Of a DNA stretch of 64,000 nt, positions 1-42,590 are shown piece after piece. A model generated the notes under the pieces. It worked only from the letters and a program-made list of their open reading frames with translations. It had not been told where the DNA came from and did not search any database. The first letter of the stretch is position 1. Every line of letters begins with the position of its first letter. Origin of the DNA: Chrysophaeum taylorii (lineage: Eukaryota; Sar; Pelagophyceae; Pelagomonadales; Pelagomonadaceae); NCBI GenBank assembly GCA_029834535.1, contig JAQMWT010000111.1, forward strand, positions 1 through 64,000. Reading direction: 5' to 3'. A program made the translations under genes and the position numbers.

Positions 1-870
1 GTTGTCGATGCTGACAAGACAACGCGCGCATGACCGCGGCCTTTTTTTCCTGGAGACGAGGCGTCGGAGTTCTTTTCAGCCGACTAGGTTGGGTCGGAAG
101 ACGACGCCTCGCTCTTTACAGTCGAGTTTTGAACTCCCTGACAACCAACGGCATGCTGACTTTGATCGCGAGCTTAAAGTCTTCGCAACCTCGACCCGTC
201 GCACGGCCACTGCAACGGTACCAGATACATGATCGATCGTGTCGTGTCACCGAGGCTCCTCCAACCTGGATCCCTTAACTCCCGCCGACGCCAAACGATC
301 AACAAGAGCCAGGGCCAGACGCCCCGCGAGGTCGGCGTCCTCTTGCCCAAGCCCGTCTTCTGCCACGTCCAGCTCTACGTGCCTCTCTGTCGATCGGCAA
401 CCCCGAGGTTATCCTCTTCCGGGTCGACGACTCCACCCTACCCCACGCCTGCTGCGCAATACCGATAAGCCCCCTCCCGGCGTCTACACGCGCACTGTAG
501 GTGAACTTACTGGAACCAGGTGAACTTACGGAGGTTAGGGATTGGGATTAGCTGAAATTAGTGACCAGGCGAACTTACTGAGACCAAGTGAACTTACCGG
601 GGTTTTTAGAGCAAACTCAAAGGTTAGCGACGTGTGCGGATCAAAGCAGCTTAGATTGGCGAGGGTGAGAGGGACGAGTTCAAAGGAGAGGGGTGAGTGG
701 ATGTGACCACGAGTGGGCTTACGCCGAACTTACTGGGGTTAGAGAATTGGGACTAGGTGAACTTACTGGGACCAGGTGAACTTACTGGGGTTAGAGATTG
801 GGACTAGGTGAACTTACTTGCGAACTTACTGGCCTGCACTTGTCCTAACTACTAATCGACAGATGTTTGT
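1..870. repeat. Tandem duplication, copy 1
   Basis: This stretch is repeated with small changes at about 1066-1880. Both copies share a GC-rich part of about 480 bp, then a part built of short GTGAACTTACTGG-type repeats, and both end in GGCCTGCACTTGT. Open frames run across it on both strands, but they resemble no protein I know and look like by-products of the repeated sequence. It lies directly upstream of the dynein gene and could be intergenic or part of a 5' intron. Confidence 0.8.
500..832. repeat. Short interspersed minisatellite in copy 1
   Basis: The motif GTGAACTTACTGG and close variants recur many times, separated by GGGACCAG, GGTTAGAGATTGGGACTAG and similar spacers. The same pattern ends copy 2 at about 1563-1865. 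No coding capacity is apparent. Confidence 0.75.
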
Positions 871-1065: not shown

Positions 1066-1880
1066 ATGTTGTCGATGCTGACAACGCGCGCATGACCGCG
1101 GCCTTTTTTTCCCGGAGACGAGGCGTCGGAGTTCTTTTCGGCCGACTAGGTTGGGTCGGAAGACGACGCCTCGCTCTTTATAGTCGAGTTTTCGACTCCC
1201 TGACAACCAACGGCATGCTGACTTTGATCGCGAGGTTAAAGTCTTCGCAACCTCGACCCGTCGCACGGCCTCTGCAACGGTACCAGATACATGATCGATC
1301 GTGTCGTTGTCACCGAGGCTCCTCCAACCTGTATCGCTTAAGGCCCGCCTACGCCAAACGATCAACAAGAGCCAGGGCCAGACGTCCCGCGAGGTCGGCG
1401 TCCTCTTGGCGAAGCCAGTCTTCTGCCACGTCCAGCTCTACGTGGCTCTCTGTCGATCGGCAACCCCGAGGATATCCTCTTCTGGGTCGACGACTCCGCC
1501 CTACCCCACACGCGCTGCGCAATGCCGATAAGCCCCCTCCCGGCGTCTACACGCGCACTATAGGTGAACTTACTGGGACCAGGTGAACTTACTGGGGTGT
1601 GAGATTGGGACTAGGTGAACTTAGTGACCAGGTAAACTTACTGAGACCAAGTGAACTTACTGGGGGTTTCAGAGTAAAGGGTTTTTAGAGTGAACTCAAA
1701 GGTTGGCGGCGCGTGCGGACCAAAGCAGCTTAGGTTGGCGGAGGCGAGAGCGACGAGCTCAAAGGAGTTGGTTAGAGCTAGGTGAACTTACTGACCAGGT
1801 GAACTTAACAGAAACAGGTGAACTTGATGGGGTTAGAGATTGGGAGTAGGTGAACTTACTGGCCTGCACTTGTTTGTTAT
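1066..1880. repeat. Tandem duplication, copy 2
   Basis: This is the second copy of the unit at 1-870, in the same orientation. It differs by scattered substitutions and short indels. Its last bases (GGCCTGCACTTGT) are followed by about 80 bp of unique DNA before the first ATG of the frame that runs into the dynein gene. Confidence 0.8.
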
Positions 1881-1954: not shown

Positions 1955-4900
1955 ATGACGATGTCGTTGTCGTCGTCTTCCATGAGCACTATTCTATCTG
2001 GATTGTGGGGCTTTCACGTTGGTTGGCGAGAGGCCGAGGCGCTGTGTTTGCTAGGTGACACGGCCGAGGGACACGTGCGGCTTAGGCTGGAGGGCCGAGA
2101 GTGTGTAGTCGACTCTTGGAATTGGGAGTGGGAGATTTCCAAGGCAGGGGGCAGGCTTGTGTCCATAGTACGGAACCGCGGGTCATCCTTTCAACGTGGT
2201 CTGCGTCGGCGGCAGCGGCGGCAGCGTGTATCGCTGGCTGCGGTCCTGACGAAAGTGGTGACGAGGTCAGAGTTGGTGGCCGGAATTGACAGAAAAGAAG
2301 GTGCGATAGAAGAAGTGGAAAGATTTGGCCGCGCCGAGGTCGAGGTGCGTCTGGACTATGAAGCTGGCGAACCACGCGTGGCATGTGGTGATGAGGGTGT
2401 GGCGCGAGAGGCACGATTGGTGGCAGAATGCATGGGGCTATCCACTGTCTGGGAGTCAGGCTTTGCGGTGCAACTCATGCGACTACGCCAGGTCGCGGCA
2501 TTTTTTAAAGGTCTTGACTCTCAGATCTTGGGCTGTCACCGGCCGCGATTCTTGCCGTTATTGGTGGGACTCGAGGCCACGCAGGATGTGAACCGTGCCA
2601 AGGCGACGTGTGACGCTATTGCCAGACTCAATCGGAAGCTCCGGAAGCGACACTCAAACTTTTTGGACCATCTCTCATGGCTGAGCGAGGTGCGCTAATC
2701 CACTAAGTAACGTGAGCTTGCTGGCAGGTCGACGTGCGTGTAAACCCGCAACACTGGAAACAGCAGTTGGCCATCTGCCAACAGTATGCGGACGACAGTG
2801 AAGATGGGGCTTATAGAGATTTCGCATCTAGTCAGATCCGCAAGATATTCCAAATTTGCTGGCTGACTAGCGCGCAGTCACTCTTATCTGGAGGGTTTGT
2901 GGAGGTCCTGGCTGACGGCAGATTTGATCCCCCATTTGAAGAGATTCGTGCTCGGACTTACAGGGAGGTTAAGAGGTCCGTGGACTCAGCTGCTCAATTT
3001 GGCGGTATAGGGGCCACACGCGAGGTCATGGGTTTCTTGATGGAGGTGTACCGGAGGCTTGAGGCGACTTTAGAAGGTGTGTTAAAATCACGAGACCATG
3101 TCTTGGCTTTGGGACAAAAAGTTCTGCGGCTGGTAGAGTCATCCGAGAATGTGTTTGAGGTTGTCACTCATGATTTCGAGGTTGAGATTAGAGCAATTCG
3201 CGCTACGAAGAAGTTGATGGATCATGAGGTTCCTGACGAGATTAAGATCGAGGGCTACACCCTCCAGGCACGTAAGTTTAAGCAGCGGCTTGATGAGAAA
3301 CTTGACGAGGCCTCAGTGGCAGTTTGGAGGCAACTGCGTCGTACTGCGAACGAGGCCGCTACGCTGATCGAAACTCAAGTAAGTGACGTGTTGGAGTTGC
3401 TCCGAAGCCGCCCACAGAGTATCCCAGATATAGCCGATTGCCAGGCACGATTTCAGTTGATGGACAAACAAGCGCTTCTTGCAGCTGCGGCAGATGCCAT
3501 GGACCTTTTAGATCTCATGAGTGATGATCCAAGGAAGATCAGCCTAAGAACAAAATTGGCTGCTGTCGAAGACGCACACGAGGCTTTTCAGGAGATGCTT
3601 GCGATGCAGAAGGCCTCCTTGCTGTCGAGACTGGAAGCCTCGATTGTCGAACATCGCCAAGAGATCGACAAACTTCAAGAGCGCTGGGAGGTGCTACGGC
3701 CGAGAGAGGTTCTCGACAACAACCTAGAGACTGTGCTCGGTGATCTTGCGGCCTGGGAAAAGACGACGGACGAGCTGATGGTACGCTCCGTAGACCTGAC
3801 CAGTAATGTCTGCGCCTTCGGTTTGCCGCCACAACGCTTCGAGGCACTCGACACGCTACAGCGGAGTGTTCGTGCCGCAAGCGACGAATGGGCAGTCCTG
3901 GCGAATTTTCGACATGACCTAGAGGTGATGGGCAGCCAGGACTGGATATCGTTCCGCAAGAACGTCCACCAACTCGTCGACCTCGCAAACAAGCAGCCTG
4001 TCCCAACGGAAAATGCGACTCAAACCTCGGTTGTCTTCCTTAGCCTACAGCTTGAGTGCGACCAGCTGCGTGCAGCATACCAGACCTTGAAGTATTGCCA
4101 CGGGAAGGACTTCAAAGATGAGCACTGGGTTTCCCTCCTCCAATTTAAGCTCCAGCTCCCGCGAGAAGTCAAGCTAGACACGCTGACAGTGGGGCACTTC
4201 CTCGCTCACCTAAAAAAAATGCCAGACTTACTACCCTTCTGCAAGGAACTCACGGCCAAGGCCGCTGGCGAAGTGCTCGTCCGGGACGCACTGAACGAGG
4301 TGCAGGCTTGGGCGCAGTCAGCACATCTGGCGCTGAATGACTTGGGACACATCATCGAGTGGAGGGACCTATTTGCTGAACTAGGCGATAAGCAGGCTTT
4401 GCTTGCCTCTGTGAAGGGGTCACCATTCTTTGAAAACTTCGAAGAATTGGTTGTGACATACGAGCGTAAAATGGCAGATTTAGACTTATCATTGCAAGCG
4501 CTGAAGACCATTCAACACAGGTGGGTCTATCTCGACCCTTTATTCAAGCGTGGTGCTCTCCCTCAAGAACTACAAGGGTTTTCAGCCTTAGACGCAGACT
4601 TCCACGACATTCTTCTTCGCATCAAAGACGATCCTAAAATTTTTTCACTCGTAAGGGAGAATAATGAACAACTTCGCACCAGCATCGAACGTCAACTTCA
4701 TCAGCTCGACCGTTGTCAGAAGGCTCTTACAGATTTCCTTGAAAAGAAGCGTGCTAGCTTTCCAAGATTGTGCGTATGACTCGTGTGTTTACTGCGCACT
4801 CCTCTAGGAGGTGTGGACCTTCTACCGATTTGACAGCACTCCGGGCTTTTAAGTTTTGACGGCAATCTGTGCTCTCTTTCAACTTATTCGACCGGGGCAG

Positions 4901-7900
4901 TGTGCTCACCCTTCCTGCTGTGACAATCTGACCTCTAAAAAAATGTGTCATAAATATGTCGTCAACTATTCTGTTGACCATGCACTATCAAGCGTTGCCG
5001 TACGATGCTTAAGCAACACCACAAGCCGTGGACTACCAATCTATTTCGAATCTGGCCTCCTTGTCCCCCTAGTGCGCGTTCCTCTCAAGTGCATGAAGCA
5101 GTATGAACGCAAGAACCTGAGGTCACGTGAGCGCATGACTGATCAATAACATAGGATTGTCCACAGACCCCATTCATAGCGCCACCGGAAGTGAACCTCT
5201 CGCAGAGGCGCGCATGACGAACGGCGAGCTTGATGATGGAGATCAATTGGAGTCTTGCAGTCAGTTTTGCGATCTTGCACGTTCAGCCGTTTGTCACTTA
5301 TGTTGGATACATGGCCTAATGTGCATGTAATTCCATATAAAGCTGGCCATGCTTTGAGACTGGAGATCAGCTTTGAACTGGATGTAAGTAATGCTGGACT
5401 GGAAATCGCAGGATCAAATGAAACGGCCTGTTAGCTGATATTGTCATTCGTCGCTCAGCGCCCTCATATATGGTTTAGCTGTGGCCGGCTGCTCCTGTTA
5501 TGCCCAGCAAATTTGCTTTGCAATCCTAGCCATATGGACAGACGACTACTTGGGGCTCTACCAGGAGCGTCACCCAAATCGCAGTATGACACTCCTCGAC
5601 GATTTCGATATGGAGGGTCCGTATGCTGGCACGGTGAGTGCATTGAAGGATTACTCGGTCTATTATGATCAGACGAGAGCCATATGATCCGAAGAGGTCC
5701 CTCGCGAGAACTGGTTTGGAGACAGATCATAAAAAGCGCTGTGAGTTGCGTCGGTGCCACGGAGGCAGGAGCCGAGCACTGACACCAAGATCAAGTCACT
5801 CATGATCATGCTCGCTCACTGAACTCATTCTGCCCATGGTAATCAAGAGACTCGTGATAACAAGTGGGAGGTCGTCTTCAAAATTGTGACTTGCAGATGA
5901 CGCGCGTCTCCTTCCGCGAATGCAAGTGAAGTGCGTTTCTTTCTGTGAAGTGTGAAATAACACGCGGCAAAATCACACAACATAGCTACGGGTGTTCGAT
6001 ATTGAAATAGTCCTTGACGAGTGTCGGAATCTCCCCCTCAGGCTGTCACGCCTTCACTGCCTGACAGTCCGTGTTTCAGGTGTTGCTGGCGCGTGGTGAT
6101 GACAACTTTCAGTCTATGGTTTCATCAGCATTTCACGGGTCTGCGGTGATGGCGCTTCGGTGCTTCGGTCGTGTTTCGGTGATATGTGGCGATGTTCACC
6201 GCTCTTCTGTTGCGTTTCAGTGATGTGTGTAGATTTAAGTTGCGTTGTGCGTCAATGTCAGAACGCTGACTACCGACAATCAGTAAGCTTCAGCGAAGCC
6301 ACTTAATGGCGACGTCATGGTTTCAGCGTGAAGCGCATGGACACTAGGCTACCGCTGTTCTCTTGACACTGCGAACTACACTTGCAACTTCAATGACATG
6401 AAGAGGTATCCCTCGGTGTGACCTCTATGTGATAAAGAAATATCCATCGATGTTTCTTGACATCGCCAAAATCCATTGTGAATCTTTTCCGAGCCCCTTA
6501 TATGCGAAGTAAAAGCAGTGATCTGCGAGCTTTGGGCATCCCTGCTAAAATAACTTAGTGGGCTGGCATGAAAATTCGCTTTCAGTGTTTTGCTGCCTCC
6601 TACCCCATAATCGTTATATGCACCTTCAATTTGTGAAACACACGTGACTGCATTGATTACTCTGCAAAGTGTCGCATGATGCGCCTGATTGTGCCGCTTT
6701 CCTGGTCAGATGGTCAAAAATTTACACACTCAGGGCGGCTTCCAAATGAACAGTGGGATAGTGTTGTTCTCGTTACTCGTAAATCTTCGTCAAAGAAATG
6801 CTATGGTGTTGGAAGCCTCATTGTCTTCTGCTGAAAAAAAACGCAATATCTTTTTTGGATGCCACACATGACCCTGATTCTGACGGAACCCGTATGCTGA
6901 GTTTCGTGGCTTGTTGCGCTTCATGTGCGTTTTGTCGTTGAATCTATGGTGGACAATCGGTTGACAGCATTTGGTGGCTGTAGCGCACGTTACTCCATTT
7001 GAAGGCATTGTTGTCGTTATTACACCATATACTTGACGATCAGGGTTCCACCATTCATGCGGTTTTCGCGAGCTGTGGTCTGTTTAGCGACACATCCCTA
7101 TGGATGTCATTGTGGCTCAGGAAATTGGCCGACGAATGGTAATGAGACGTCAGATTAATTCAGAGAATGCCGATCGAGCCCCACGTCGTGCCCATTGTAA
7201 ACAAGTCCCTAAACCTTGTAATTAGCCCCTCCATTTCGTTGCCCGAAGAGTTGCGAAAAAATGAACCGATTGTGTGAATCATTACAAATGCGTCTTAACA
7301 CACGTAAATTTTTTGCTCGTCAGATTCTCCTAATCAATCGTGTCGATCCCAACTGTTTTGCCAAAAGACATCGTGTTGTCTCCAGTAATTGTCTTCTCTG
7401 CTTATGTATGGCGCAGTTTGCAACAGTTTCCTGTAGTGCTTTGTTCTTCCCTGGCCCTAGCTGACCTGCGTGTGGTTTGTATTCTGACAGCTACTTCGTT
7501 GGCGATGAAGATCTTCTCGAAATCCTTGGCCAGGCGGTTTCACCTAATGTCATTCAGACCCACTTCAAGAAGCTCTTTCAAGGTGTCGCCAACGTCGAGA
7601 TTACACAGTTATCCAAACAACATCACACTGCCGTAGCCATGCTGTCATCTTACGGTGAGCGCGTTGAGTTAAGTTCCTCCGTTGCAATCACCGACTTGGT
7701 TGAGGACTGGCTCACGGCCTTCAGCCGTGAGATGAGGCGCACGATTTCCAGCTGTGTGCACAGTTACTTAAGATCTCCCTTATGTGATTCCGCGTCACAA
7801 GTTGTGTGCCTGGGTGAGCAGATAAAGTTCGCTCTGGCAGTGGAAGATGGAGACTTGGCAATGCTTCGGATAAAGCTCTCTGATGACCTGACGGCCCTCG

Positions 7901-10900
7901 CAACCCAAAATCACTGTGTGCTCAACGTGTTGGCCAGAATGAAAGTTAAGGCCCTCATTCTCGATCTGGTGCACGATCTTGACATACTCGACCTGTTAAT
8001 GGCCAACGATGCCCCCTGGACCTGGCAGAAGCAGCTCCGTTACTACCACCGCCAAATCGAGACTGTGGCTGTAGAGATGGCGTGTGCTGGTTTCGAGTAT
8101 ACTTTTGAATATCAAGGCAATTCCCCTAAACTTGTCAGTGCCAGAGTCCAGGACGACGGCGAAACAGCCGTCGAGTGCTTGTGCAGCTGACAACGTCTGG
8201 CGCAGGTCCACACCCCGCTGACTGATAAGTGCTACCTGACACTCTGCCAGGGTATGCACATGGGCTTTGGCGGAAATCCCTACGGACCTGCCGGTACCGG
8301 CAAGACCGAGACGGTCAAAGCCCTTGGCCAAGCGCTCGGCCGCCAAGTTCTCGTATTCAACTGTTTCAGCGAGGACCACCAAGTTCTGACAAACAATGGT
8401 TTTATGTTCGTTGATGACATCCTCGACTATGAAGGTGAACTACTTTTTGCCACTTACGTCTCCAAAAATTCTAGCATCCAGTACGAACCGGCTCGGCACT
8501 TGGTCGTCAATGAGAAAAGGACTCAGTCGATGATCGACTTCACTCGCGGAGGAGAGAGGTTGCGTTGGATGAACGGGGCAATCAGACACATGAGCGTGCC
8601 GGATGCAGTCGGAGTGTGGACAGAGCTGGTATCAGGAAATATAGTGGAAACACGTCAGTTTATCGGAGATACTCTTGGATGTGCGCGGCAAGTTGATGGC
8701 TTTTCGGTGATAAAAGCATGGGATTCGAATCGCGTTTCTGTCGTCACCACACCTCAACACCAAATATACTCCCAGAGTTTCAGAACGAAACTCAGCTTTG
8801 ACGAGGGGACCTGCGTGCAATGTGTGGACCCAGCCTCCTCGAGCCTGTGGAAGTGTGCTGCTCATTGTTCTAAGAAGGTCAAGGCCCAGGAGCTGTTAAC
8901 GAATGCTCTGACTGTGAGAATGATTGGACGCGCGGCGTGTGGTCTCTACGTGCCTCGAAGTTCCTATAGTTTTCGCATGATCCATAACGCTGTTTTCAAG
9001 CACTTAGGGTTTCATACAGAGGATAATATCCAGGGATTTTTCGAGTTTTATGGCTTCTGGCTTGGATTAGGCTATTTGCACTTCGATGAGAGTTGCAAGC
9101 CATTATATGCGCACTGTGCTCCACGTAAGAAGCAGGTTGTTTATCTGGTTGCAGCTCTGAACCGGACTCCACTGCGACAGGGGCTGGACTATGTCCTGGC
9201 ACCCTGCAGCGACAGCAGACGCGCATTGCGGTTGACCAATTCTTATTGGTTGCAACTCTTCTGCGGAGAGTTTTGGCCAAAAAGCGATTTGGGTGTTGTT
9301 TCTGAAGATAGTGTTTCCAGTCTGTTCGCATCTTGCAAGGACACTCGAAATTATGACATAGCTTGCGGTGTGAAGGTGCGAAAAGGCTGGCAGTCACGTG
9401 CTTTGCTGACCAAGAAAATACCAAAAAGTAGACCTTCAAGTTTGGAAGCCAATCAAGAGTATCACAGCCGGTACGGAGCTGTCACTCGATTCCCTACGCT
9501 GTAAATCACGGTGCGCAGGCCACAGTGCATTTGGGAGGCCAGAATGCTTCCCATTCTGGTTCAAGAATTGTCTGAATTGCTGTTTGAGCTTCTCGGAGAA
9601 GGCAACACACACTCGGTGATAGCATTGCTAAATGACCAAACTACATGGTTCCTCTCATATACGTGCCCCATCTTTGATTCTCTAAACTTTGAGATGGGTG
9701 AGCCTGGTGCTAGTCCCGCAGCAACAGTGCTTGGCACCATGTGGCAAAACCTTGGAAGGAAGACGTGTCTGTGCAATCGGCTGAAAGGGTATTGGGTCGC
9801 TGCTCACGCTGCTTATTTGAAAGGTGTGTTGAGACAGGGTGACTATTTACTGCCAGGTTCAGGCAGCAGGCTCATGCAAACAAGTCAGGGACACTACGTG
9901 CAGAGTACATTGGAGGATGTGCCGCTAGGGTCGTCGGTTTGCACAGCACCCATTGATTCTCCCGTATTGTGGTGGATATTTTGTCTTGGCAAAGAGCAAG
10001 TGCGCAGAGTCATTGTGGGATTAAAAGCTGCTCGAGGTGACGAATATTGTGAAAATGTAATCTGGACTTCTTCAGTACACATGCGCGACGATGTCTTACT
10101 CATGTGTCTTCATGCTGGTTACAGCGCTGCCTTCGTGTGTGCTCGTGATGGCCCTCTCCCACACAAGGTTGATTGCCCTGTCCCCAAAACCTGGGCTGTG
10201 ATATACTCTGGCAGTCCGGTTGTGGCTAATCCGGTGCTGTGTAAGGCTAGTGACATTCGCGTGGTTTCGTACACAGGCAAAACGTGGTGCGTTACTATTC
10301 CTCAGGGATATCTCGTTGTACGTAGAGCAATTGTCGACAAAAATCGCGATGTTGTCCAAGCATCTCGAGCGACTATCCAAGGCAATTGCGACGAAGGGAT
10401 AGATTTCACAGCAATGGGGCGCATTTTTGTTGGCCTAGTTGAGTCTGGCGCCTGGGGGTAAGTACGCCCGACCATCACCCAATCGTGTGCACTAAACAGA
10501 TAGGACCAATCCTCCCACAACTTCCACTTGTTAAGTAGCTTCACGCTTAGCATCTTAAACACGTATCTGTCGCCCTTGGAATGTGTGCCTGGCATGAAGA
10601 TTGTGTGTTTGTCGATACCTTTACCTGCCTGCTTTAAGTTTTCTGTTGTTCTCTAGCTCATGTCATCACTTGAGGTAGCGAACGTAGATGTTTTGATGAC
10701 AATCACCAGCTGCTAACGAATTATGGCTTCATGTTCCTTGATGACATTCTTTCATGCAAGGACTCTGACTTGCAGTTCGCCTCCTATGACTCCGACACTA
10801 AGACGATACGTTATGCCCACGCACGTCATGTTGTCGTGCACCCAGCTGGCCTCGAAGAAATGGTGGAATTTTCGCAAGCCGATGTGCAATGCTTAGTTGA

Positions 10901-13900
10901 TGCCGGCAGTCATTTCTTGGGTAAGCTTGTTGCTGTTCTCTAAATCCTGTTTTGTGAATCGTTGCTTTAAAATGCGAGGCCGCGTGGCTAAGATGTGCAT
11001 GCTTGAATGGCAGGCTTAAGCTTGAGTGGTGTCTCTCTCTCAGTGACTCAAGACCACGACATCTATGCAAATCAGGTCATTGATGAGCATCAACTGTTCG
11101 TGAAGAATTCGCATGATTTCCAGGCCTGGGATGATCTGAATTTTTACCAACAATGGATAACCACGTGCCGTGGGCTTGCACGTCGAAAATGTGCGAAAAT
11201 GTATTTGCCGGGCAATAGTGTAGAGTCAACCCATGGGTTCAAGCCACTCGAGTGGACAAAAATTCTTCATTGTTTCCGGCACCTAGCCGCTCAAAGGCTC
11301 GCGCGATGTGATGATCGAGCAGAGGTGATGGCTATTCACGATATACATCTTAAAGCAGAACACTTGAATAAAACACTGACTATTTCGCCCACAGTTACTG
11401 CACATATTAAGCATATCGGATATCCCAAATTAATCAGCGCATGCAATGCCCCGCAAGAGCACACTTGCGTGCCCGCCCAAGAGAGCTTTCGCCGGATTAA
11501 GGCTGGAGAGCTCGCCACTCTCAATAATAATAAATCCGCCATCGGGATGCTTGCGTTTGCTGAAAATGGGCTCAACACAGCGACTGATTCCGGGGTGGCC
11601 AAATTTATCCGGGCTGTGCTGGTAGGACTTGGACTTAAAAGAGAGGAGAAACAGTTCGCGTTTCTGCGTTTCTATGGCTCCTGGCTAGGCGATGGGTGTT
11701 TACGGTTCACTGCAGGGCTACCATGTGCCATTGTCTTAGCCCGGCAGAAAGGAGCTGACAGTGGGTTTGTACTACAGCAGCTCAATACTTGCGAAGTTGA
11801 TGACTCATATTTTAGAATTGTTCCTTCTGGTGCTATGGCTGGGGTGCACGTTTCAGAACCTAGGTGGGTTCGCTTCTTTTTTGGCGAGTATGCACACCTG
11901 TATAAGTGTGCAGACATGGAAGGTATCCATCACTGGCTTGGTATCGTGGTAGGTAGTTGTGACCTAGGTGCATTAGGGTGCAGTTGTCGGACGATGCTCG
12001 ATAAACAGTGTGGCAAGCGACGAAGTCTCGCTGTGTTCCAAGCACTTCGCAGCATCCCCATGATCATGGATGAAGAGGATGCTAGAAATTCTCCGTGTGC
12101 TTTAGAAAAGAAAGGCAGCTCTCATGAGACTCTAGATGTACTCCGTAGTTTCTTAAAATTGCGACCACCAAGAATCGACCAAACTAAAAAAAAAGAAGCG
12201 GAAGTGACATCCGAACTGCTTTATTGGTACTCGCGAGCTTTCGGATCACGTACTCTCAACAATGTTAAGAACGTCCCGTTTCTCGAGCTCGATTATCTTC
12301 TCCGTACTTCACTTTCGGCATCGCCGTGCGTTCGTACTGGGCTCTTGGACGAGATTTGCCAGCGTCACAAGGGTGCCTTGCGAGACGAGCTTCTTGCTTT
12401 CTTTAGAGTCGTTCTTCGCACGGCGCACTTGCCATTTGTTCGACCGGTCTCCACAACGTTTATAGCACTTGATACGAACGCTACACGTGAAATACTTGAT
12501 CCGGAAGCCGTGTGTCAATGGGACGTAGGGAAAGTACCAAGTGAAAGCGCGAACATTAGCGATTTCCTCAGGGACTTGCTCGGGGACATGGATCTTCGGC
12601 GATTAGACTCCATGCTATCGATCATTCGTCACAAGGGACGCAGCTATTATTCTGCAGTTGATTGGGCCATGGTGAAAGAACTAATGACCGGGCGGCTGGA
12701 GCACATTGGGCTGATGCCCCCATTCCACATCCAGGCAGCCATTGCCGTAGGCCTGCGTGTTGGTCACGTTGTCCAAATCCTGGGTCTCAAGCCCGATTAT
12801 GCAGGTTTACGGCACGCATTCCAGCCCGAATTCGAAGTACCGAAAGCCACTTTCGCATTTGATTTACACCTCGCTCGACAGGAATTGTTACCCCTAATGC
12901 CATCTTTCTTGCCACGGCCATGTTTTCAATCTAGACCCAATAGCCCGCGGAGTAAGCAGGGTGACATTGAGGGCTCCGAGATACAAAAAAATTTGACGTG
13001 GTGGACGCTGGCGCTTGCACAGGAGTTTGCACGTTCTATAATAAGTGGCTACGGTGTAGCCGCTGGATCAACTTTGGGGCGAGAAAAGTTCGTGTTTACT
13101 TCGTCAGAGCGTTGCCGCGATGAATTTACAATGATTATACTGCACGCTGGATACGCTACCCGATTCACACAGGTATCCGAGCATCTTTACAATCAGAACC
13201 TCGAACGTAAAATCAGCCTGGTTGCTAATTGCCAGCAACGCAGCGTGAACCTGTGGCGCAGCTCCTTTGTCGACAAAATGTGGGCTGTGTCTTACATATT
13301 AGGAATCGAAGAATGTGAATTCTGTCATCCTACCTGCAGAACCATTGCGACACCCATAATGCGTGCGTCTACAGATGTGAGGTCAGTCCGGAAAAAGTGC
13401 CGCGTGTGGTGTGTCACTATTCCCCACGGGTTGGTCGTCGTGCGTCGTGCACGCAGGGAGGGCGCTTGTGGAAACGTGGTCTGCGCCTCCGCGCCAACCA
13501 TTCAGGGAAATTGCTTTGACGAATTCAACCGTCTGAAATCGGATCAGCTATCTGCCATCTCCCAGCAGATCCAGGTAATCCAGGATGCTATTAAGGCGCG
13601 TCACGCGACCTTGAGCCTCCTGGGCAACATGGTGCCGATTGATCACAACGCTGGCATCTTCGTTACTCTAAACCCGGCTGGCAAGGAATATGGCGGCCGG
13701 TCTGATATCCCAGAAAACTTGAAGGCGCTGTTTCGGCCAGTAGCCATGGGCATGCCGGATAATGAACTCATTGCTGAAGTGTACCTAAAAGCTGAGGGCT
13801 TCACAAGTGCAAAGGAGCTTGCTATCAAAATGGTCGCACTCTTCGCCATGGCACAGCATTCACTTACGCCACAACGTCAGTATGACTGGGGCCTTCGTGC

Positions 13901-16900
13901 CCTTAAGGCAGCCTTGCATACAGCTGGCAAGCTCGCTGTGCTTGCCCGCATGACTTCCGAATCGGCCATTGATGAGGCTTTCATCCTGATCAAGGCTGTT
14001 CGCGTCAACACGCTCTCCAAGCTGACTCTTGGTGATGCCCGTCGTTTCCTAGACCTTGTTATGGACGTGTTCCCATATGTATCTTCAACTAATGCCGCGG
14101 ACGGTGAACTCGAGGCCGCATTGCGAGATGTTATCCAGGCAAGCAGCCTCTCGGTAAGTGAAACGCAGGTTCGGAAGATGCTTGAACTCAAAGAAGCCCT
14201 TGACCAGCGAATGGGCTGCGTGGTCGTTGGCCCTTCGGGTTCGGGCAAGACGACAGTTTGGCGATCACTTGAAGCCGCCCTTTTCAAGCTGGGGCATCCT
14301 GCTTTGATCAGCGTCTGGTGTCAATGCGTATGCGCACATCAGTGGTGTGTACACGGGTGGGTGTTGGTTGTGAAGTCGGCAGTGCTTAATGTCAACGCGC
14401 ATGCTCACATATATGTGTGTACACCTATAGGTGGTGAGATGTGCGGGTAGCTGGGCTCCTGTTCGGTGCCTCTCATCACGTTACGGCAGGTCAAAACTCA
14501 CGTGCTTAACCCGAAGGCGATGCCGCGTTCGCGTCTCCTGGGTGTTATGGATGCTGACACGCGCGAATGGACTGACGGCGTCTTGACAGCAGCTGCGCGA
14601 CAGGTCGTCATTGATGAGCCAGCCACGTCGTGGATTGTGCGTTCTCAACGTGTCTCCAATACTAACAGCAAAAAAACATGTACTTAGGTGTGCGACGGTG
14701 ATGTGGATCCGGAGTGGATCGAAGCGTTGAACTCGGTGCTTGATGACAACCACCTGTTGACTCTCCCGAATGGGGAGCGGATTGTTTTCGGGATGAATGT
14801 TAATTTCATTTTTGAGACGCATGACCTTAAGTTTGCGTCACCCGCAACGATATCGAGAATGGGCATAATTTCTTTGTCCAGTGAAGACTTGGACGTTCGA
14901 CGAGTGTGCTTGAAATGGCTTGCCGACCACTCTGCGCGCCATCTCGAGGCGCTCATGAACGAATTTTTCTACCGTGCAGTTGACCTTTTTCAGGCGCAGT
15001 TCAAACAAGCGGAGATAGTGGAGACTACTTTGGTTGGGACCGTGGTAAGTGGGCTTTCGGCACTGCCTCGGATTGGGGAGAAGCCACCGCCTAAGGGGCA
15101 ATTCATTTGTTGCCTCGTGCGAGGGCTCGGGGGTAACCTTCCAGTTGCTGAACGGTCCAGATTCGCCAAGAAACTCTTTGATTGGGCAGAGGAGCGGCCA
15201 CCCGACTGCGGGGCACCACTCGACTGCGACTTTGATGAGCAAGTTGGGATTTTGCGTCCACTGGCGCGGCGAGCAGCCGAGTCACGGCAGCGGCAGCAAC
15301 ACAAACATCCTTCGACGTTAGGTGATTACATTCCAACAGTGTCATCCTTGCGGGCGCTCGCAGCTCTCGAGCCATGGGTCGAGGCATCTGAGCCGTTCAT
15401 CTTAGTAGGCCCGGAAGGCTGCGGAAAAGCGATGCTCATTCGTGAAGCCTTTGCCTCGCGAAAGACTGCATTTGCAACCTTGTACTGCTCGGCGCAGACG
15501 TCTGCAGTACACGTCGTGACAAAGATTCAGGAAACATGTGCCCTGCTGTCAGGTCCTGACGGTAGGGTCTACCGTCCACGCGATGCCGACCGACTTGTTC
15601 TGTATCTCAAGGACCTCAACTTGCCCAAGCCTGACCAGTATGGCACGTGCATGCTAGTTGCCTTTTTACATCAGCTTTTAACGCTCGGTGGTTTCTACGA
15701 CACTGACCTCGAATTCCTTAGGATCGATCGCCTGCAGATTTGCGCCTCGATGAATCCGACAACCACTGTCGGTCGGTATCCACTCTCAGTCAGATTTACG
15801 TCTGCGGTTCACTTTCATGTTCTTGATTATCCCGACACCTCAGAGCTAGTGGCAGTCTGCTCTGAGCTTTTAGACGAACGTTACTCAAAGCTCGCGGTAG
15901 CGATGGTCGATGTGTATGGGCAGATCCGGTCGACCTTCACCGTTGATGATCAGCGCCACTATGTCTTCACTCCGCGAGATTTGATTGCATGGGTTCGTGG
16001 GATCAGACGCTACGCTACCAATGAGGACACTGAGGAGATTGCAGTGCACGAGGCCCTACGCCTGTTCAGAGATCGTCTGGTTGACGAGGTTGCCTGCGAA
16101 AAGTGCGACCGGCTGCTGGAAGAAGTCTTCCCATCGCACAAGTGCCTTGGTGGGATGCCTACTGTGTATTATACAACGCTAGTGGCCAAATTGATCATTG
16201 GGCATCAGACTCTTACACGTACGTCGGCCGCTGATTTTGAGTCGCACATTCGGACAGGGTTGGAAACCTACGAACGCGAGCACGCGGCTCTACGAATGAC
16301 ACTTTTCCCGCAAATCCTTAGGAACATCGCGTGCATTGACCGTGTCTTAAGTCGCCCTTGTGGGCACATCCTACTTTTGGGTCGGGCCGGTGTCGGCCGG
16401 CGTTCAGCGATCAGACTCGTGGCGTACCTTTACGGTGTGGAGCTTACAACTCCGAGTGTCCCAGTGCAATGCGACCCTGGCTTAAAGCAGCTCAAGGCGG
16501 ATCTCAAGCCAGCTGTGGCCCTAGCCGGAAGTGCGGGCAAGTCGGGTGTAGTCTTCTTAGAAGATCGGCACCTCGCCCTTGCGGGAACTCTCGAGCTCCT
16601 GAACTCTTTGCTGACATCAGGAGAGATCCCAGAACTCATTGCAGTCGATGAACTTGACCTAGGTGCCATCCGTGAGGATGCACACGAGGCAAAGTTTCCT
16701 GGTTCACCCTATGACTTCTTCTTGCAACGCATCCAGAGCAATCTCCATGTTTGCATAGCGATGGACCCAACCAACCCGAGTTTTGATTTGCGCTGCGAGT
16801 CGAACCCAGCCCTCTTAGCCAGGTGCGACTTGCTTTGGTTTGGTTCTTGGGCTAGGGAGTCCATGCGCGCGCTGACAGTGGGGTTTATGGATGATGTTGA

Positions 16901-19900
16901 CGAGGCGGTTATACTCAAGCAGAGATATCGTTATCAAGAGAGCAACTTTGTCTGTCAGGAGCAAAATTTGACTGCGTCCTCGAAGTGCCTAATTGACGGC
17001 CTCATTGCTGTCCATGAATCGGTAAGTCCACCTGCGCCCCCCTTGGGATTTTTCTCATTGCTTGAGACATGGCGAGGGCTGTACAATGCAGCGCGGGGCA
17101 ATCTTGGGGAAAAGCTTGGGAACCTCGAGGCTGGCCAGGCTAAGCTAAATGATGCGTCGAGGACTGTGGATGACTTCTCGAAACAAGCCCGCATGGATCA
17201 AAGTAAATTGCAAGAGGCTCAAAAGGCTGCCGACGTGGCCATGGAGATGATCACCAAGACACTTTCTGAGGCGACAGCTCGACGGGTCGAGGTTGATGAG
17301 TTAAAACACGAGGTCGAAGAGTCAGAGCGGGCCACAGTTTCTCGACACGGCGACATCAAACAGGAACTTTCTTCGATCGCACCAGTTCTTGAGTCAGCCA
17401 AAGTGGCCGTAGGCCGGATCAAACCTGAGCATCTTAACGAGATCAGATCACTAAATATGCCGCCAGAACCGATCGCCGATGTCCTTCGTGCTGTCCTTAT
17501 GCTTCTGGGTATCACTGATGTTTCATGGACGTCAATGAAGAAGTTCCTGGGGAACCGTGGTGTTAAGGATGAGATTCTTAATTTTGATGCAAGTCGCATC
17601 AGCGGCCAAATGCGCAAGGATGTAGCGCGATTGCTGAAGCAAAAGGCTTCTTCCTTCGATCAGGCCAGCATTACACGAGTATCAGTTGCCGCTGCGCCAT
17701 TGGCTGCATGGGTCAAGGCCAATATCCGGTACTCGGTCGTCCTGGAAAAGATCGAACCACTCGAATGTCAGCTCCAACAAGCGGAGGATGCAGCAGCCAG
17801 CTGCCGTCAGCGGCTCTCTGACTGCGAGCATGAGATCTCCGAAATTGACAGTCGTGTGGTTTTGCTCAAGCGTGACTTTGCTGACAAGACGCGCGACACC
17901 GAACTGCTCAAGCAGCGCCTCGAAACTGCCGACGGAACACTTGCCAAAGCGCAGCAGCTTATCGGCCAGCTCAGTGGCGAGCAAGATCGCTGGCGTGCGC
18001 AGGCGCGGGACATCCGCGATGAGCTAGAGGTACTACCACGCAAGCTTATCGTTGCGGCAGGTTTTGTGACTTACTTGGCCAAGTACCCCGAGGACAAGCG
18101 TGAGGTTCTGCTTGCGAGATGGACGCGGGAGCAGGGCTTTGACCAAGGTTTTTCACTGACCAGGCTTCTCTCCAGCGAATCTCAACTGTTGTCGTGGAAG
18201 CAGCTTGGTCTGCCTGCAGACTCGCTTTCGCAGGAAAACGGCCTCATCCTTTCAAACTGCCGCCATGCTACACAACGGGTCCCTTTCATTGTTGACCCGG
18301 CCATGGCTGCTTCTCAGTGGCTTCTGGCCATCTCGGATGAAGCAAGCGCCAGTCTTGAGGTTGTGCATGCGGCAGACGCGCGTCTCGCACACCACGTTGA
18401 GCTATCCATACGTTTCGGAAAGACTCTCCTGGTGATGGACGCCGATGGTGTTGATGCGGCTTTCTACCCGCTAGTGCGCCGTGATGTCATCTTCTCGCAC
18501 GGCACACGAGCCTGCATACGGTTTGGTGACAAGACCCTTGATTTCAATGAGAGCTTTCAGATGACCCTCACTACTAAGAACCCACAGCCCAATCTTCCGC
18601 CCGACGCCGCCGCACTGGTTGTCGAGATCAACTTCACTGTCACGCGAAGCGGCTTTAAGGACAAACTACTTGAAGAAACACTGCGGCACCAGCGACCCGA
18701 GCTAGAAGTAAGAAAAAAAGCTCTGTTACAGGAGGAAGAAGAGTACAAAGTCAAGCTGGCAGACCTTGAGAAAGAGCTACTATTGACGTTGGCCACCGAG
18801 AAAGGCAACTTGTTAGATAACGTCATGCTGATGGAGTCCCTGACCCGGATCAAGACTGCTGCACAAAATATTCAAGATGCCTTGGCTGCGTCGGCTGAAG
18901 CTTCGTGCAAGCTCGATAAAGAGCGTGAGGTCTACCTGCCACTCGCACACGACGCTTCGCGGCTCTTCTTCATCATATCGGACCTCGTGCATATCAACAC
19001 GATGTACCAGTTCTCCCAGAAATATTTTTTGTGTGTGTTCTGCCGTGCGCTTAAAGATTCAAAACGTGACACGTTCAAGGGTCAACTGGGTCAGCTTGTT
19101 TTTTTTTTCGAGCAGCTGGTGTTTTATTGTGTTGGTCAGTCCTTGTTCAAGGTTGATCGGGCAACGTTTGCTATGCACGTCCTCCGTAGCATGCATCCCG
19201 AGAGTATACACAAATCGGAGTGGGCCCTCTTCATGGGGGACCTGGGCAGAGGGGTGGGTATGAGTGCTACCACGGCGGTGAACCTACCGTCGTGGGCTGC
19301 GGCTGACCGCCAGCAATCCTTTGCAAATCTGGCGACACATCTTCCGCAACTTGTCAGGGCGCTTGAACTAGAGAATGCGCCGAGGTGGGTACCGTGGTCT
19401 TGCTCACTGGAGTGCGAGCACGAGTTCCCACCTGAGGCAATGCGCGAGACAACGCCGTTCCAACGGGTATTATTTGTGAAAACTTTTCGACCCGACCGTC
19501 TCATGTCGGCCATCAACCAATTGTGCATCGAGGTTCTTGAACTGTCGACACTGTCGCCACCGCACTTTTCCTTCGAGGAATGTGAGACGCGAGCCGACAC
19601 CCCCATCCTCCTTATCACGACCCCAGGAGCCGATCCTTCTAGGGAGCTTCAGGACTACGTATCCCGCCAACCAAATTTGCGCATTAACATGCTGGCTATG
19701 GGTGGTGGCACCCATGACACAGCGCTTCGTCTTCTTGAGGCAGCCATGTGCGAAGGTGCTTGGCTCTGTCTGCAAAATCTTCACCTCGTTGTCGCATGGC
19801 TACCCACTCTCGAGAAAGCATTGGCGCCTGTCCAGAACACAGGAAATCTCCACGGTCGTTTCCGTCTGTGGCTGACGACAGAGCAACACAGCGAGTTTCC

Positions 19901-21329
19901 GTGCACACTTTTGAAACAGGCTTTAAAGATAACGTTTGAGAGCCCGCCGGGTACGAAAAGAAACATGCAACGAACACTCGCTTTTTGGGGGTCAGATTTT
20001 TACAACGCACACGATGCTCGCACCCGTAGGCTGCTTTACCGTCTCGCCTGGTTTCATGCACTTGTCCAAGGGCGCTGCATGTATGTTCCTCAGGGTTGGT
20101 CCAAACCCTACGATTTCTCGGATAGCGACCTTCGCGCTGGTGGGATAGTGATGTCCGCTGGCCTCGACATTGTTGCTGTCCGTGGCCTAATGGAGGATGC
20201 AATATATGGTGGCCGCATTGACAATGAACAGGATGCCTGTGTACTACACGTTTACTTACGCGAGCTTTTCTGTGACAGCGACTGCAGTTCATTACCATTT
20301 GGTGGACCGGATGAACCGCGGTGTTGTTCGTTCGGCGATTGTGTTTCCGCTGTCGACCGTCTCCCCGACGCTGACATGCCCTCAGTTTTCGGGCTACCGA
20401 ACAACATCGGACGGTCGATGCAGCGGGCATCGTCAGCTCGCGTTGTTGATCACCTTCGTCGCCTTGCATCCGCCGGTGTGTGGACCGTCAGCTTCGACCG
20501 CAACCTCTGGCGCTCTAAGCTCTCTCCCTTTCTGGACCTATGGCAGGCGCTCTCTCTTTCCATGCATGATAACGGTGGTGCTTACAACACCACCGAAAGT
20601 GCATCTGATCGTTTTGACCCCCTGCGCGACTTCGTCGCTATGGAACATTCAAAGGCAACAAAACTCTGCCAGCTGGTTAATGCGTCGCTGGCAGAACTCA
20701 AGAACGTTCTCTATGGCACGCGCCTCCTGACGTCGGCAGTTCAGGCCTTTGCGACTTCGCTGATTGCTGGCAACATCCCTTCCACATGGGCTGCGCACTG
20801 GGACCAAGGGCCCAAGGACCAGCCTTCAGCCCAGCTCACTGGGCAGGCACACAAGCTCACCGCACTACGACAAGACTGGGGCATTGGAAATCTTATGGCG
20901 ATCCACCTCGATCTAAATAGTGTCTTCCGACCCGCGACCTTCCTCAATGCCCTCCGACAGCTCACGGCACGAGCCTCTCAATGTCCAATCACCGATTTGT
21001 CCCTCATGTGCGACTGGTCCAAAGAGGGACTAGCCGAAACTACCATATGTGTGGTCTGTCGGAATCTGCTTCTCCAGGGAGGGGACTTCTGCCAGGGCCA
21101 TTTTGCCACGGCCACCGCAATGTCACCCGATCTTTTAACACTGAACCCCTTAACGCTGGCCTTTGTCCCGAACGCGCAAGTTACTATCTGCGACATCTCA
21201 CTCCCAGTGTATGTCGATACTTCACGCCAGTACTTCATCGTGAACTTTAACTTCCCTTCGACCCAGGCTGATGACCAGTCCGTCCGGGTCCTTGCTGGAG
21301 CTGCCATCTTCCTCCGGGACGTCACCTAG
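1955..21329 (+). CDS. DYNC2H1: Cytoplasmic dynein 2 heavy chain (retrograde IFT motor) with two inteins
   Basis: This is the minus-end microtubule motor that returns intraflagellar-transport trains from the tip of the cilium. I assemble exons 1955-2689, 2728-4769, 7491-8133, 8206-9500, 9543-10457, 10688-10920, 11044-14312, 14490-14636 and 14688-21329. They give one frame of 5306 codons plus stop, or about 3745 residues after both inteins are removed. Recognised parts are the tail and linker (to about 8130), AAA1 P-loop GPAGTGKT (8284-8307), AAA1 Walker B CFDEFNR (13512-13532), AAA2 P-loop GPSGSGKT (14229-14252), AAA3 GPEGCGKA (15408-15431), AAA4 GRAGVGRR (16380-16403), stalk coiled coils (about 17095-17430 and 17740-18030) around the microtubule-binding tip, then AAA5, AAA6 and the C-terminal domain. 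The end ([10 protein letters not shown], then AAIFLRDVT) matches dynein 2 rather than axonemal dyneins. Dynein similarity is clear only from about 2310, so the start is uncertain. Roughly 550-600 N-terminal residues of the usual protein are not found. Confidence 0.93.
2690..2727 (+). other. Dynein intron 1 (38 bp)
   Basis: This very short GT-AG intron (GTGCGC to TGGCAG, phase 0) contains an in-frame stop. Removing it joins WLSE to [10 protein letters not shown], which restores the tail alignment to dynein 2. Confidence 0.85.
4770..7490 (+). other. Dynein intron 2 (2.7 kb)
   Basis: The donor GTGCGTATG and acceptor TTCTGACAG, split within a codon, join SFPR to [14 protein letters not shown], the conserved linker sequence of dynein 2. 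The interior has no recognisable gene, RNA or transposon, only short frames without family resemblance. It is more than ten times longer than any other intron in the gene, so it may hold an unrecognised or decayed insertion. Confidence 0.88.
8134..8205 (+). other. Dynein intron 3 (72 bp)
   Basis: The intron runs from GTCAGTGCC to GGCGCAG. Excision joins QGNSPKL to [13 protein letters not shown], matching the conserved entry into AAA1. A donor four bases further on cannot be excluded. Confidence 0.8.
8362..10386 (+). other. Intein 1 in dynein AAA1 (about 661 aa)
   Basis: This is a protein-splicing element inserted between Asn and Cys of the dynein motif VFN/CDEGID. Block A begins [15 protein letters not shown] with the nucleophilic Cys1. 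Block B is [10 protein letters not shown] (TxxH, about 8734-8765). The C-terminal blocks are [15 protein letters not shown] (about 10285-10329) and TIQGN, ending in the splice Asn (penultimate Gly, not His) before native Cys+1. Between them is a LAGLIDADG-type homing endonuclease region. Its first motif reads [11 protein letters not shown] (about 9046-9078), with Leu where the catalytic Asp of WLGDG is expected, so the nuclease is probably inactive. The splicing residues all look intact. The closest style I recognise is the large inteins of giant viruses and some eukaryotes. A small intron interrupts it at 9501-9542. It is paralogous to intein 2. Confidence 0.93.
9501..9542 (+). other. Intron 4, inside intein 1 (42 bp)
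   Basis: An in-frame TAA (9502-9504) is bypassed by a GTAAAT to GGCCAG intron of 42 bp, the same size class as intron 1. An 18-bp alternative ending at 9518 also keeps frame but would be extraordinarily short. If neither is spliced, the intein is cut short and dynein would not be made. Confidence 0.65.
10458..10687 (+). other. Dynein intron 5 (230 bp), abutting intein 2
   Basis: The consensus donor GTAAGT follows GAWG of the dynein frame. The acceptor AACGTAG is followed by one base that completes the Gly codon, then the TGT of intein Cys1. The intron therefore ends one base before the intein. Confidence 0.88.
10689..13511 (+). other. Intein 2 in dynein AAA1 Walker B (about 900 aa)
   Basis: This second intein is inserted between Gly and Cys of the Walker B segment GAWG/CFDEFNR, 24 dynein residues after intein 1. 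Block A starts [15 protein letters not shown], nearly the same as intein 1. Block B is SVTQDHDIY (TxxH, about 11040-11066). The last blocks are [15 protein letters not shown] (about 13406-13450) and TIQGN before native Cys+1. The first LAGLIDADG motif is intact ([11 protein letters not shown], about 11668-11700). The second region reads ISGYGVAAG and lacks the expected acidic residue, so nuclease activity is doubtful. It is about 240 residues longer than intein 1, the excess lying in an unrecognised segment between the two motifs (about 12000-12950). All residues required for splicing are present. Confidence 0.92.
10921..11043 (+). other. Intron 6, inside intein 2 (123 or 93 bp)
   Basis: The donor GTAAGC follows SHFL in the intein frame. 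Two in-frame acceptors exist, at 11013 (TGGCAG) and 11043 (pyrimidine-rich TCTCTCTCTCAG). I prefer the second because of its tract. The first would add ten residues before VTQDH. Confidence 0.75.
14313..14489 (+). other. Dynein intron 7 (177 bp)
   Basis: The donor GTCTGG is weak and the acceptor is TACGGCAG. Excision joins HPALIS to [13 protein letters not shown], conserved in AAA2 of dynein 2. The exact donor is less certain than the acceptor. Confidence 0.75.
14637..14687 (+). other. Dynein intron 8 (51 bp)
   Basis: The intron runs from GTGCGT to TACTTAG, with a branch-point-like ACTAAC near its 3' end. It joins TSWI to [12 protein letters not shown], the conserved AAA2 Walker B region. 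Confidence 0.88.
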
Positions 21330-21453
21330 CCTCGGTGGCGCACGTGATCATCGGGACATAAACACTGCTCTCTAATAATCCCTCTACGGTTCGGCCTAAC
21401 CTTCTCCTGAATGGCGACATTTGTGCCTTTATGCTGCAGACTCAACTATAAAC
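21330..21453. other. Short 3' flank of the dynein gene
   Basis: Only about 120 bp separates the dynein stop codon from the first retrotransposon LTR. No other feature is seen, and the 3' untranslated region may run into the LTR. Confidence 0.5.
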
Positions 21454-21743
21454 TGGAGAGATTTGACCCTCCCCGGGTACATGGTAGAGACTGCGTGCAG
21501 TCTTAGGCGAGTACAGGCCATTCCGCTTGTCACATGCTACTACACAAGGTAGGGATTTAGGCCCTAGCTCCTTAAGGACATTAGGTCCCATAGAAGCGTA
21601 TACACTGACAACGAGGAACGAAGCCTCTGTTAATTATACAGAAAACCCCGTACCTAACGGTACGCACCTGGAGGCCTACTCCGTGTTGGAAGAGAGCTTC
21701 AGACTGTATTCATCATAGTCATGAAATAAATAATTGCGGAAGG
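21454..21743 (-). mobile_element. Partial copia LTR, type A (copy A1)
   Basis: It starts TGGAGAGATTTGACC and matches 47581-47870 in the same orientation, and 42299-42574 and 49800-50080 inverted. It is a truncated LTR whose inner side abuts a different LTR type (B) at about 21744. No internal region of its own remains. Confidence 0.8.
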
Positions 21744-42133: not shown

Positions 42134-42574
42134 GAGGTTGCACATCACACATATCAATAAAAAAAAACTGGGCGAGGGATTCCAGAGAGCTACACTATTA
42201 TGTGTGCGACACTGGAACATTTCACACCTATCTCTACAAGAGGGTTTTCTCTCCGTAATGCGGCTTTCCCTCCTTCCTTCCTTCCCCTTCCGCAATTACT
42301 TATTCATGACTATGAGGAGCCCAGTCTGAAGCTCTTTTCCAACATGGAGTAGGCCTCCAGGTGCGTACCGTCAGGTACGGGGTTTTCTGTTTAATTAACA
42401 GAGGCTTCGTTCCTCGTTGTCAGTGTAAACGCTTCTATGGGACCTAATGTCCTTAAGGAGTTAGGGCTTAAATCCCTACCTTGTGTAGTAGCATGTGACA
42501 AGCGGAATGGTCTGTACACGCCTAAGACTGCACGCAGTCTCTACCATGTACCCGGAGAGGGTCAAATCTCTCCA

Positions 42575-42590
42575 GGTTATGGGCCCAGAT
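42575..42590 (+). other. Copia copy 3 primer-binding site (initiator tRNA-Met anticodon arm)
   Basis: GGTTATGGGCCCAG directly follows the LTR end, as in copy 1 at 22061. Conservation between the two otherwise different LTR types supports a real priming function. Confidence 0.78.

Follow-up and report, generated by a model that had tools for sequence, protein, structure and literature searches.

Two probable inteins inside the AAA1 ATPase of the dynein-2 heavy chain genes of Chrysophaeum taylorii

Introduction

Inteins are scarce in eukaryotes and, according to the main text of a 2018 survey (PMC5784728), the nuclear ones lie mostly in Prp8, VMA1 and RNA polymerase genes, with Fusarium fujikuroi (three inteins) as its example of several in one genome. 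In Goodwin et al. 2006 (PMC1635734), inteins of RPB2, RPC2 and RPA2 are reported, those of RPB2 are grouped with the ThrRS and ClpP inteins, and an intein piece from an E. huxleyi virus ends in TGN. Two inteins within one ATPase are described for DnaB of Mycobacterium smegmatis (PMC6195587), a bacterial helicase. Here we analyze a window of 64,000 nt (positions 1 to 64,000 of contig JAQMWT010000111.1, here C111, of the Chrysophaeum taylorii assembly GCA_029834535.1), in which the gene for a eukaryotic nuclear motor, the dynein-2 heavy chain, carries two insertions within its AAA1 ATPase that are best read as inteins.

Like the RPB2/RPC2/ThrRS-type nuclear inteins, to whose sequence family they appear to belong, these elements are inserted at highly conserved host sites before a Cys and have Gly before their last residue (compared with PMC1635734). 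In contrast to that group, the hosts here are motor ATPases and regulators rather than polymerases or synthetases, at least 13 inteins occur in one nuclear genome, the catalytic pair of the endonuclease is mostly lost, and introns lie inside inteins. The VMA1 intein PI-SceI differs from the first window intein in host and site, shares 11-12% identity with it over aligned residues, and lacks the endonuclease decay seen here, while the Prp8 inteins of Cryptococcus, from yet another host, are shorter chains that align only over the Hint part (133-136 residues). The word dynein is absent from the main text of the 2018 survey, and the literature at title and abstract level, which leaves preprints and most subscription papers outside, yielded no report of a dynein or kinesin intein. 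This agrees with an earlier sequence-only reading of the window, which knew of none in a dynein.

Results

Two insertions separate Walker A from Walker B

The dynein-2 gene is read as follows, all on the forward strand.

2716..4779, +: dynein-2 heavy chain, tail/linker part (DHC_N2); open frame, Pfam PF08393 at E 2e-45
7465..8133, +: dynein linker to start of AAA1, predicted exon end before intron 8134-8205; Pfam PF08393; the 5' limit is that of the open frame, not a mapped exon start
8134..8205, +: putative spliceosomal-type GT..AG intron between PKL and VHTPLTDK; joined reading matches DYNC2H1
8206..8361, +: extein, AAA1 with Walker A GPAGTGKT, ending VFN; joined reading matches DYNC2H1
8362..10386, +: intein 1, 659 aa without the 48-nt intron; Hint domain and a LAGLIDADG domain without either catalytic Asp
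9471..9518, +: putative 48-nt in-frame GT..AG intron within intein 1, carrying its only in-frame stop; the second gene copy (contig C183) has a 48-nt counterpart at this position
10387..10457, +: extein and first two bases of a Gly codon, from the sequence between both inteins
10458..10687, +: putative intron splitting the Gly codon ahead of intein 2; same intron in C183, with alignment gaps of 20, 1, 2 and 3 nt
10689..13511, +: intein 2, 910 aa without intron 10921-11013; splicing blocks and a LAGLIDADG region that retains the first catalytic Asp but not the second; homology to the P0001 and P0002 inteins, dN/dS 0.40
10921..11013, +: putative spliceosomal-type intron within intein 2, 93 nt (107 nt in C183)
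13512..14450, +: extein, Walker B CFDEFNR, rest of AAA1 and start of AAA2; Pfam PF12774 at E 1.3e-72; the 3' limit is that of the open frame, not a mapped exon end
14688..21329, +: dynein-2 heavy chain, AAA2 to C-terminus, open frame of 2213 aa; Pfam domains, PDB match DYNC2H1

The identification of the host as dynein 2, proposed from sequence before, is borne out by Pfam PF12774, the DYNC2H1-specific PF21264 and further dynein motor domains, which run from AAA_6 to Dynein_C and include the DYNC2H1-specific AAA domain, and by DYNC2H1 as the best PDB match. With inserts and introns taken out, 266 extein residues align with DYNC2H1 (4rh7) at E 1.2e-105; the alignment is gapless from VHTPLTDK to Walker B and far beyond, with a single gap near residue 218, and no host residue is lost at either insert. 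The inserts lie where the sequence-only reading had placed them, starting with Cys at 8362 and 10689 and ending in IQGN directly before the host Cys codons at 10387 and 13512, where the host frame resumes after intein 1 and as CFDEFNRL after intein 2. Both possess the splicing residues claimed for them, namely Cys1, block B TxxH and a C-terminal Asn, and both are followed by the native host Cys at position +1. A LAGLIDADG endonuclease domain is present as well; since its catalytic Asp sites read GLG and ARG in intein 1 and GDG and AAG in intein 2, no active homing endonuclease is claimed for either.

The gene structure calls for four GT..AG introns (8134-8205, 9471-9518, 10458-10687 and 10921-11013), of which 10458-10687 would end one base before the Cys codon of intein 2. 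An in-frame TAA at about 9505 in intein 1 lies within the 48-nt GT..AG stretch, and the stop in the C183 copy lies within a 48-nt GT..AG stretch at the same place. Among the GT..AG pairs able to open this frame (seven listed in C111 and two in C183, the 48-nt pair included), we prefer 9471-9518 because it is the shortest common to both copies by place and length. In either dynein-2 gene found, both inteins lie between the Walker A and Walker B motifs of AAA1; therefore a working motor implies splicing at both sites, and it follows from the gene structure and from the presence of both inteins in each copy that mature dynein-2 would need two splicing events.

A second dynein-2 gene with both inteins, and selection on the splicing parts

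A second dynein-2 gene, on contig C183, shares 78-80% DNA identity with the window gene and has both inteins in the same positions. A DYNC2H1-specific profile search of the assembly found these two loci and no third dynein-2. A comparison of the copies gives a dN/dS of 0.43 in intein 1 and 0.40 in intein 2, compared with 0.15 in the AAA1 extein; within the inteins the ratio is lowest in the N-terminal splicing parts (0.29 in both) and reaches 0.50 and 0.43 in the middle parts, with 0.29-0.37 for the Hint parts. The frame is kept across 650 and 899 aligned intein codons at dN/dS below 1. All 23 indels in the inteins are multiples of three, versus three of seven in two adjacent introns; in the 48-nt intron there are no indels. 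Both copies have an uninterrupted long extein frame (2213 and 2219 aa), in which the four indels are all multiples of three. The simplest reading of these comparisons is that the inteins predate the gene duplication and have been read as protein since.

Profile searches and predicted fold

The sequence-only reading had named the absence of a Hint-profile match as grounds for abandoning its claim, and on this check the outcome was unfavorable: neither window intein matches a Pfam or NCBIfam profile up to E 10. However, the test appears too weak here, because five relatives (P0003, P0005, P0024, P0085 and P0088, of the seven scanned) also lack a Pfam Hint match at E up to 1, while the predicted structure of intein 1 is that of an intein, a Hint fold with both ends meeting, to which endonuclease-bearing VMA-type inteins fit best among compared structures. 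PDB sequence searches yielded no matches for intein 2 up to E 1 and none for a profile of seven inteins of this genome up to E 10; with alignment A3, the best 60 of 107 matches fell on RNA polymerase subunits and thus reflect the exteins of the relatives in the alignment. An Rfam scan of the window gave no matches.

A family of inteins in one genome

In the assembly, queries with intein 2 or with individual N- and C-terminal pieces, whose counts are lower bounds, identified 13 complete inserts of one family at 11 host sites on eight contigs (each dynein-2 site, present in both copies, is counted once). A slash marks the insertion point.

C111 and C183, dynein-2: two inteins each
C138, axonemal-type dynein: two inteins, at HMRK/CFDN and VFN/CSDQ
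C24, ankyrin-repeat protein: two inteins, both starting in one 3165-aa frame
C330 and C110, kinesins: one intein each
C40: intein of a UBR-box protein, and a CDC27 intein on the other strand
C334, Ser/Thr phosphatase: intein at APNY/CDAMGN (L018 3229-4302)

Host names other than dynein are presumptive, being readings of the flanks rather than results of family searches. Cys1, TxxH, WC and the terminal Asn are found in all 13; Gly is penultimate in 12 of them and His in one, and the +1 residue is Cys in 12 and Ser in one. Ten read without a stop (six contiguously, four with proposed introns), and three were joined by eye. A clear endonuclease Asp pair (GDG, ADG) remains only in the C110 kinesin intein. 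The recurrence of one family with conserved splicing residues, together with the 23 intein indels between the dynein-2 copies, all of them multiples of three, indicates that the inserts are more than chance.

The VFN/CSDQ site of C138 occupies the same AAA_6 profile position as intein 1. AAA_6 matches occur on 17 contigs, and dynein genes with inteins were found on three; in three of four intein-free paralogue stretches VFN/C or GAWG/CFDEF is uninterrupted, and the fourth has no match to the search patterns. Weak genome matches on C440 (E 0.08), C650 (E 1.2) and C126 (E 0.4) were not counted, and C552 holds a decayed C-terminal intein piece with stops in a kinesin-like stretch.

Single members show further features. 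The C40 CDC27 intein (C40_b, L019 5239-5898, minus strand) is a 220-residue mini-intein without endonuclease, in an uninterrupted frame with its CDC27/APC3-like TPR host. The C330 kinesin has two tandem N-terminal intein starts (L012 3086-3250 and 3790) before one recognized C-terminal end, and the stretch between them may be a degenerate first intein, perhaps one of two in a row. In this kinesin (L012 about 2930-3085, by eye), as in both copies of intein 2, a spliceosomal-type intron appears to end one or two bases before the first Cys codon.

Relatives elsewhere and the intein tree

A protein search with intein 2 found a minichromosome maintenance (MCM) protein interrupted by an intein at Walker B (P0001, E 6e-44) and, at E 5.5e-10, a PP2B-type phosphatase whose intein lies at APNY/C (P0002). 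The phosphatase intein in turn found DDX41 with an intein before a zinc-knuckle Cys (P0003), and a search with the DDX41 intein returned 104 proteins including itself, of which 69 have Rpb2-type domains, one of these relatives being named RPC2; other host domains are family-B DNA polymerase, threonyl-tRNA synthetase (one protein) and RING, the last in a protein named from Polyrhizophydium, which we take to be a chytrid. The accession of P0091 is presumably a transcriptome record, a hint that family members stay in mRNA. N- and C-terminal profiles of the inteins of this genome also score the inteins of these relatives directly. Through this chain, the window inteins can be assigned by sequence to the RPB2-type eukaryotic intein clan. 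The genes to which the sequence-only reading had confined nuclear inteins (VMA1, PRP8, GLT1, CHS2 and RNA polymerase subunits) would then be too narrow a list, provided that the P0003 relatives are nuclear, as their eukaryotic-type hosts suggest.

Readable C-terminal ends in 103 of 105 found proteins have Gln (67), Asn (34) or another residue (2) last, followed by Cys (98), Ser (2), Thr (1) or another residue (2). The search admits proteins of 0.55 to 1.75 times query length and scores the best 8000 or 7999 word-sharing candidates, so dynein-sized hosts elsewhere could not appear. Pfam Hint matches in the RPB2 proteins P0060 (759-978) and P0083 (884-1275) were set aside as family support; they belong to another intein, because they lie before the INPH site that carries the family intein (after residues 1242 and 1297). 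Each of these two proteins has a second intein, of a different, profile-recognized type, besides the one at INPH/C.

Scans of viral_contigs with A1, A2 and A5 (61, 10 and 73 pattern matches) and of genome_contigs with A5 (99 pattern matches) contained no relatives; no viral or prokaryotic DNA source turned up in these scans, though one may exist.

A tree of 43 inteins over 409 columns combined 30 of the 105 found proteins with the 13 inteins of this genome; P0017 (N end unreadable) and P0089, P0009 and P0092 (uncertain ends) were left out, and the start of P0006 was trimmed by two residues. The dynein-2 Walker B inteins (GAWG/CFDEF) are sister to the MCM Walker B intein (C/CIDEF) with support of 94, and the C138 dynein inteins stand next to this group (81, 78). 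The inteins of the two kinesins, which occupy homologous sites, are sister to each other (97). A further group (80-87) unites the ankyrin, UBR and CDC27 inteins with inteins of two other proteins, and the C334 intein falls with the RING intein P0085 (96). Dynein intein 1 and C138_b are placed apart, though both lie at VFN/C. Many deeper branches are weak (30-73). These placements suggest that there were probably several entries as well as spread between genes, and the spread may have run through shared motif DNA. The APNY/C phosphatase site is used by two inteins from different tree branches and different sources (C334 and P0002).

Other features of the window and assembly

25040..28693, -: retroelement frame with reverse transcriptase, RNase H and integrase domains
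28875..29540: frame beside the retroelement, DNA methylase match just under the Pfam cut-off
18..544 and 1080..1607: direct repeat, 1.06 kb apart
21448..21725 and 42303..42580: inverted repeat, 95%, 20 kb apart
48137..49517: imperfect inverted repeat of 594 nt
60997..62036: 1 kb stretch 94% identical to one place in C183, its last 0.3 kb also to a second

Another contig of the assembly, C697 (L030, L031; 103.6 kb), is plastid-like and carries a RuBisCO large-subunit gene. We take its genes to be rbcL, rbcS, cbbX, chlI, psbA and psbC, with a RuBisCO presumably of the red-lineage type, and because of this gene set the host is probably photosynthetic.

Discussion

The junction residues, the family of 13, the predicted fold of intein 1 and the pattern of selection together make two inteins in AAA1 of the dynein-2 heavy chain the best explanation of the locus. 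We consider it highly probable that dynein-2 is made as a precursor with two inteins from a multiplied RPB2-type family, and that the endonucleases of these two have decayed and their splicing parts are kept.

Several points weigh against this conclusion. The frame of intein 1 is open only if the 48-nt intron is accepted, the penultimate residue is Gly where His is usual, and the inteins evolve faster than the extein (0.40-0.43 versus 0.15). The window inteins have no sequence match to Hint in Pfam, NCBIfam or PDB, nor did any of seven inteins of this genome that were scanned, one of which gave a non-significant LAGLIDADG_3 match (E 0.085). The structure model covers intein 1 only, has a mean pLDDT of 64 with 281 of 675 residues below 50, and was built on an alignment that held other presumed inteins. 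Finally, the tie to published RPB2 inteins rests on hosts and insertion type rather than on named reference intein sequences.

The alternatives fare less well. The inserts could themselves be introns, open by chance, removed from the mRNA and never translated, in line with the spliceosomal-type introns of the gene, which include two within inteins and one that abuts intein 2. However, inspection of the borders shows no GT..AG pair whose removal would restore the extein (the inserts start at AAC/TGT and GGA/TGT and end in GGCAAT and GGAAAT before TGC), and the intein fold, the frame kept over 650 and 899 codons at dN/dS below 1 and the 23 of 23 indels in threes make this extremely improbable. 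That both dynein-2 genes are dying pseudogenes whose inteins no longer splice would accord with the lost endonuclease residues, with the degenerate C552 piece and, should the 48-nt intron not be real, with the in-frame stop of intein 1 in both copies; we regard it as very improbable, because the stops fall within the shared 48-nt GT..AG unit, neither copy has a stop in the long extein frame (2213 and 2219 aa), where four of four indels are in threes, the AAA1 extein and Hint parts evolve at dN/dS of 0.15 and 0.29-0.37, and both copies keep the splicing residues.

Hint domains may also cleave rather than splice, as in Hedgehog-like or bacterial-intein-like proteins, in which case dynein would be cut into pieces. 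This is very improbable given the terminal Asn and host +1 Cys or Ser in 13 of 13 inteins of this genome, the Asn or Gln last residue and the Cys, Ser or Thr at +1 (each in 101 of 103 readable ends) among the relatives, and the best fold fit to endonuclease-bearing VMA-type inteins; moreover, a dynein severed between Walker A and Walker B would be expected to lose its motor function. An artefact of assembly or contamination might be suspected in an assembly of 697 contigs, but it has next to no probability when the same arrangement stands on two contigs 20-22% apart in DNA, introns within and beside the inteins are common to both, and complete inteins lie inside host genes on eight contigs.

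If the inserts are inteins, the spliceosomal introns, including one in each intein, would be removed from the transcript first, the inteins would stay in the mRNA, and the precursor would be translated with both. Inteins excise themselves by an N-S shift at Cys1, transfer to Cys+1, Asn cyclization and an S-N shift. Each Hint domain would here use Cys1, block B TxxH, the C-terminal Asn and the host Cys+1, and ligation would connect VFN with CDEG and GAWG with CFDE; this step would first bring Walker A and Walker B onto one chain free of the inserts of 659 and 910 residues between them. The elements would have entered as homing elements of the RPB2-type eukaryotic family and multiplied in this genome, after which the dynein-2 endonucleases would have decayed while selection held the splicing parts, presumably because the host gene needs them. 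A bolder proposal, which we consider unlikely but worth stating, is that one family colonized the nuclear genome by jumping between unrelated P-loop motors via conserved nucleotide-binding-motif DNA, which would make protein splicing a prerequisite for cilium building and microtubule transport (through both dynein-2 genes, the axonemal dynein and two kinesins) and possibly a common switch.

The finding means that curated Hint profiles miss at least the scanned members of this intein clan, and that one genome may hold at least 13 inteins, in dyneins and, as their flanks are read, in kinesins, an anaphase-promoting-complex subunit, a UBR-box protein, a phosphatase and an ankyrin protein. With intact, decayed and endonuclease-free inteins side by side, the homing cycle would be readable inside one eukaryotic nucleus. 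Because the motor would not be whole before two protein-splicing steps, the dependence of cilia on protein splicing would be directly testable in this organism.

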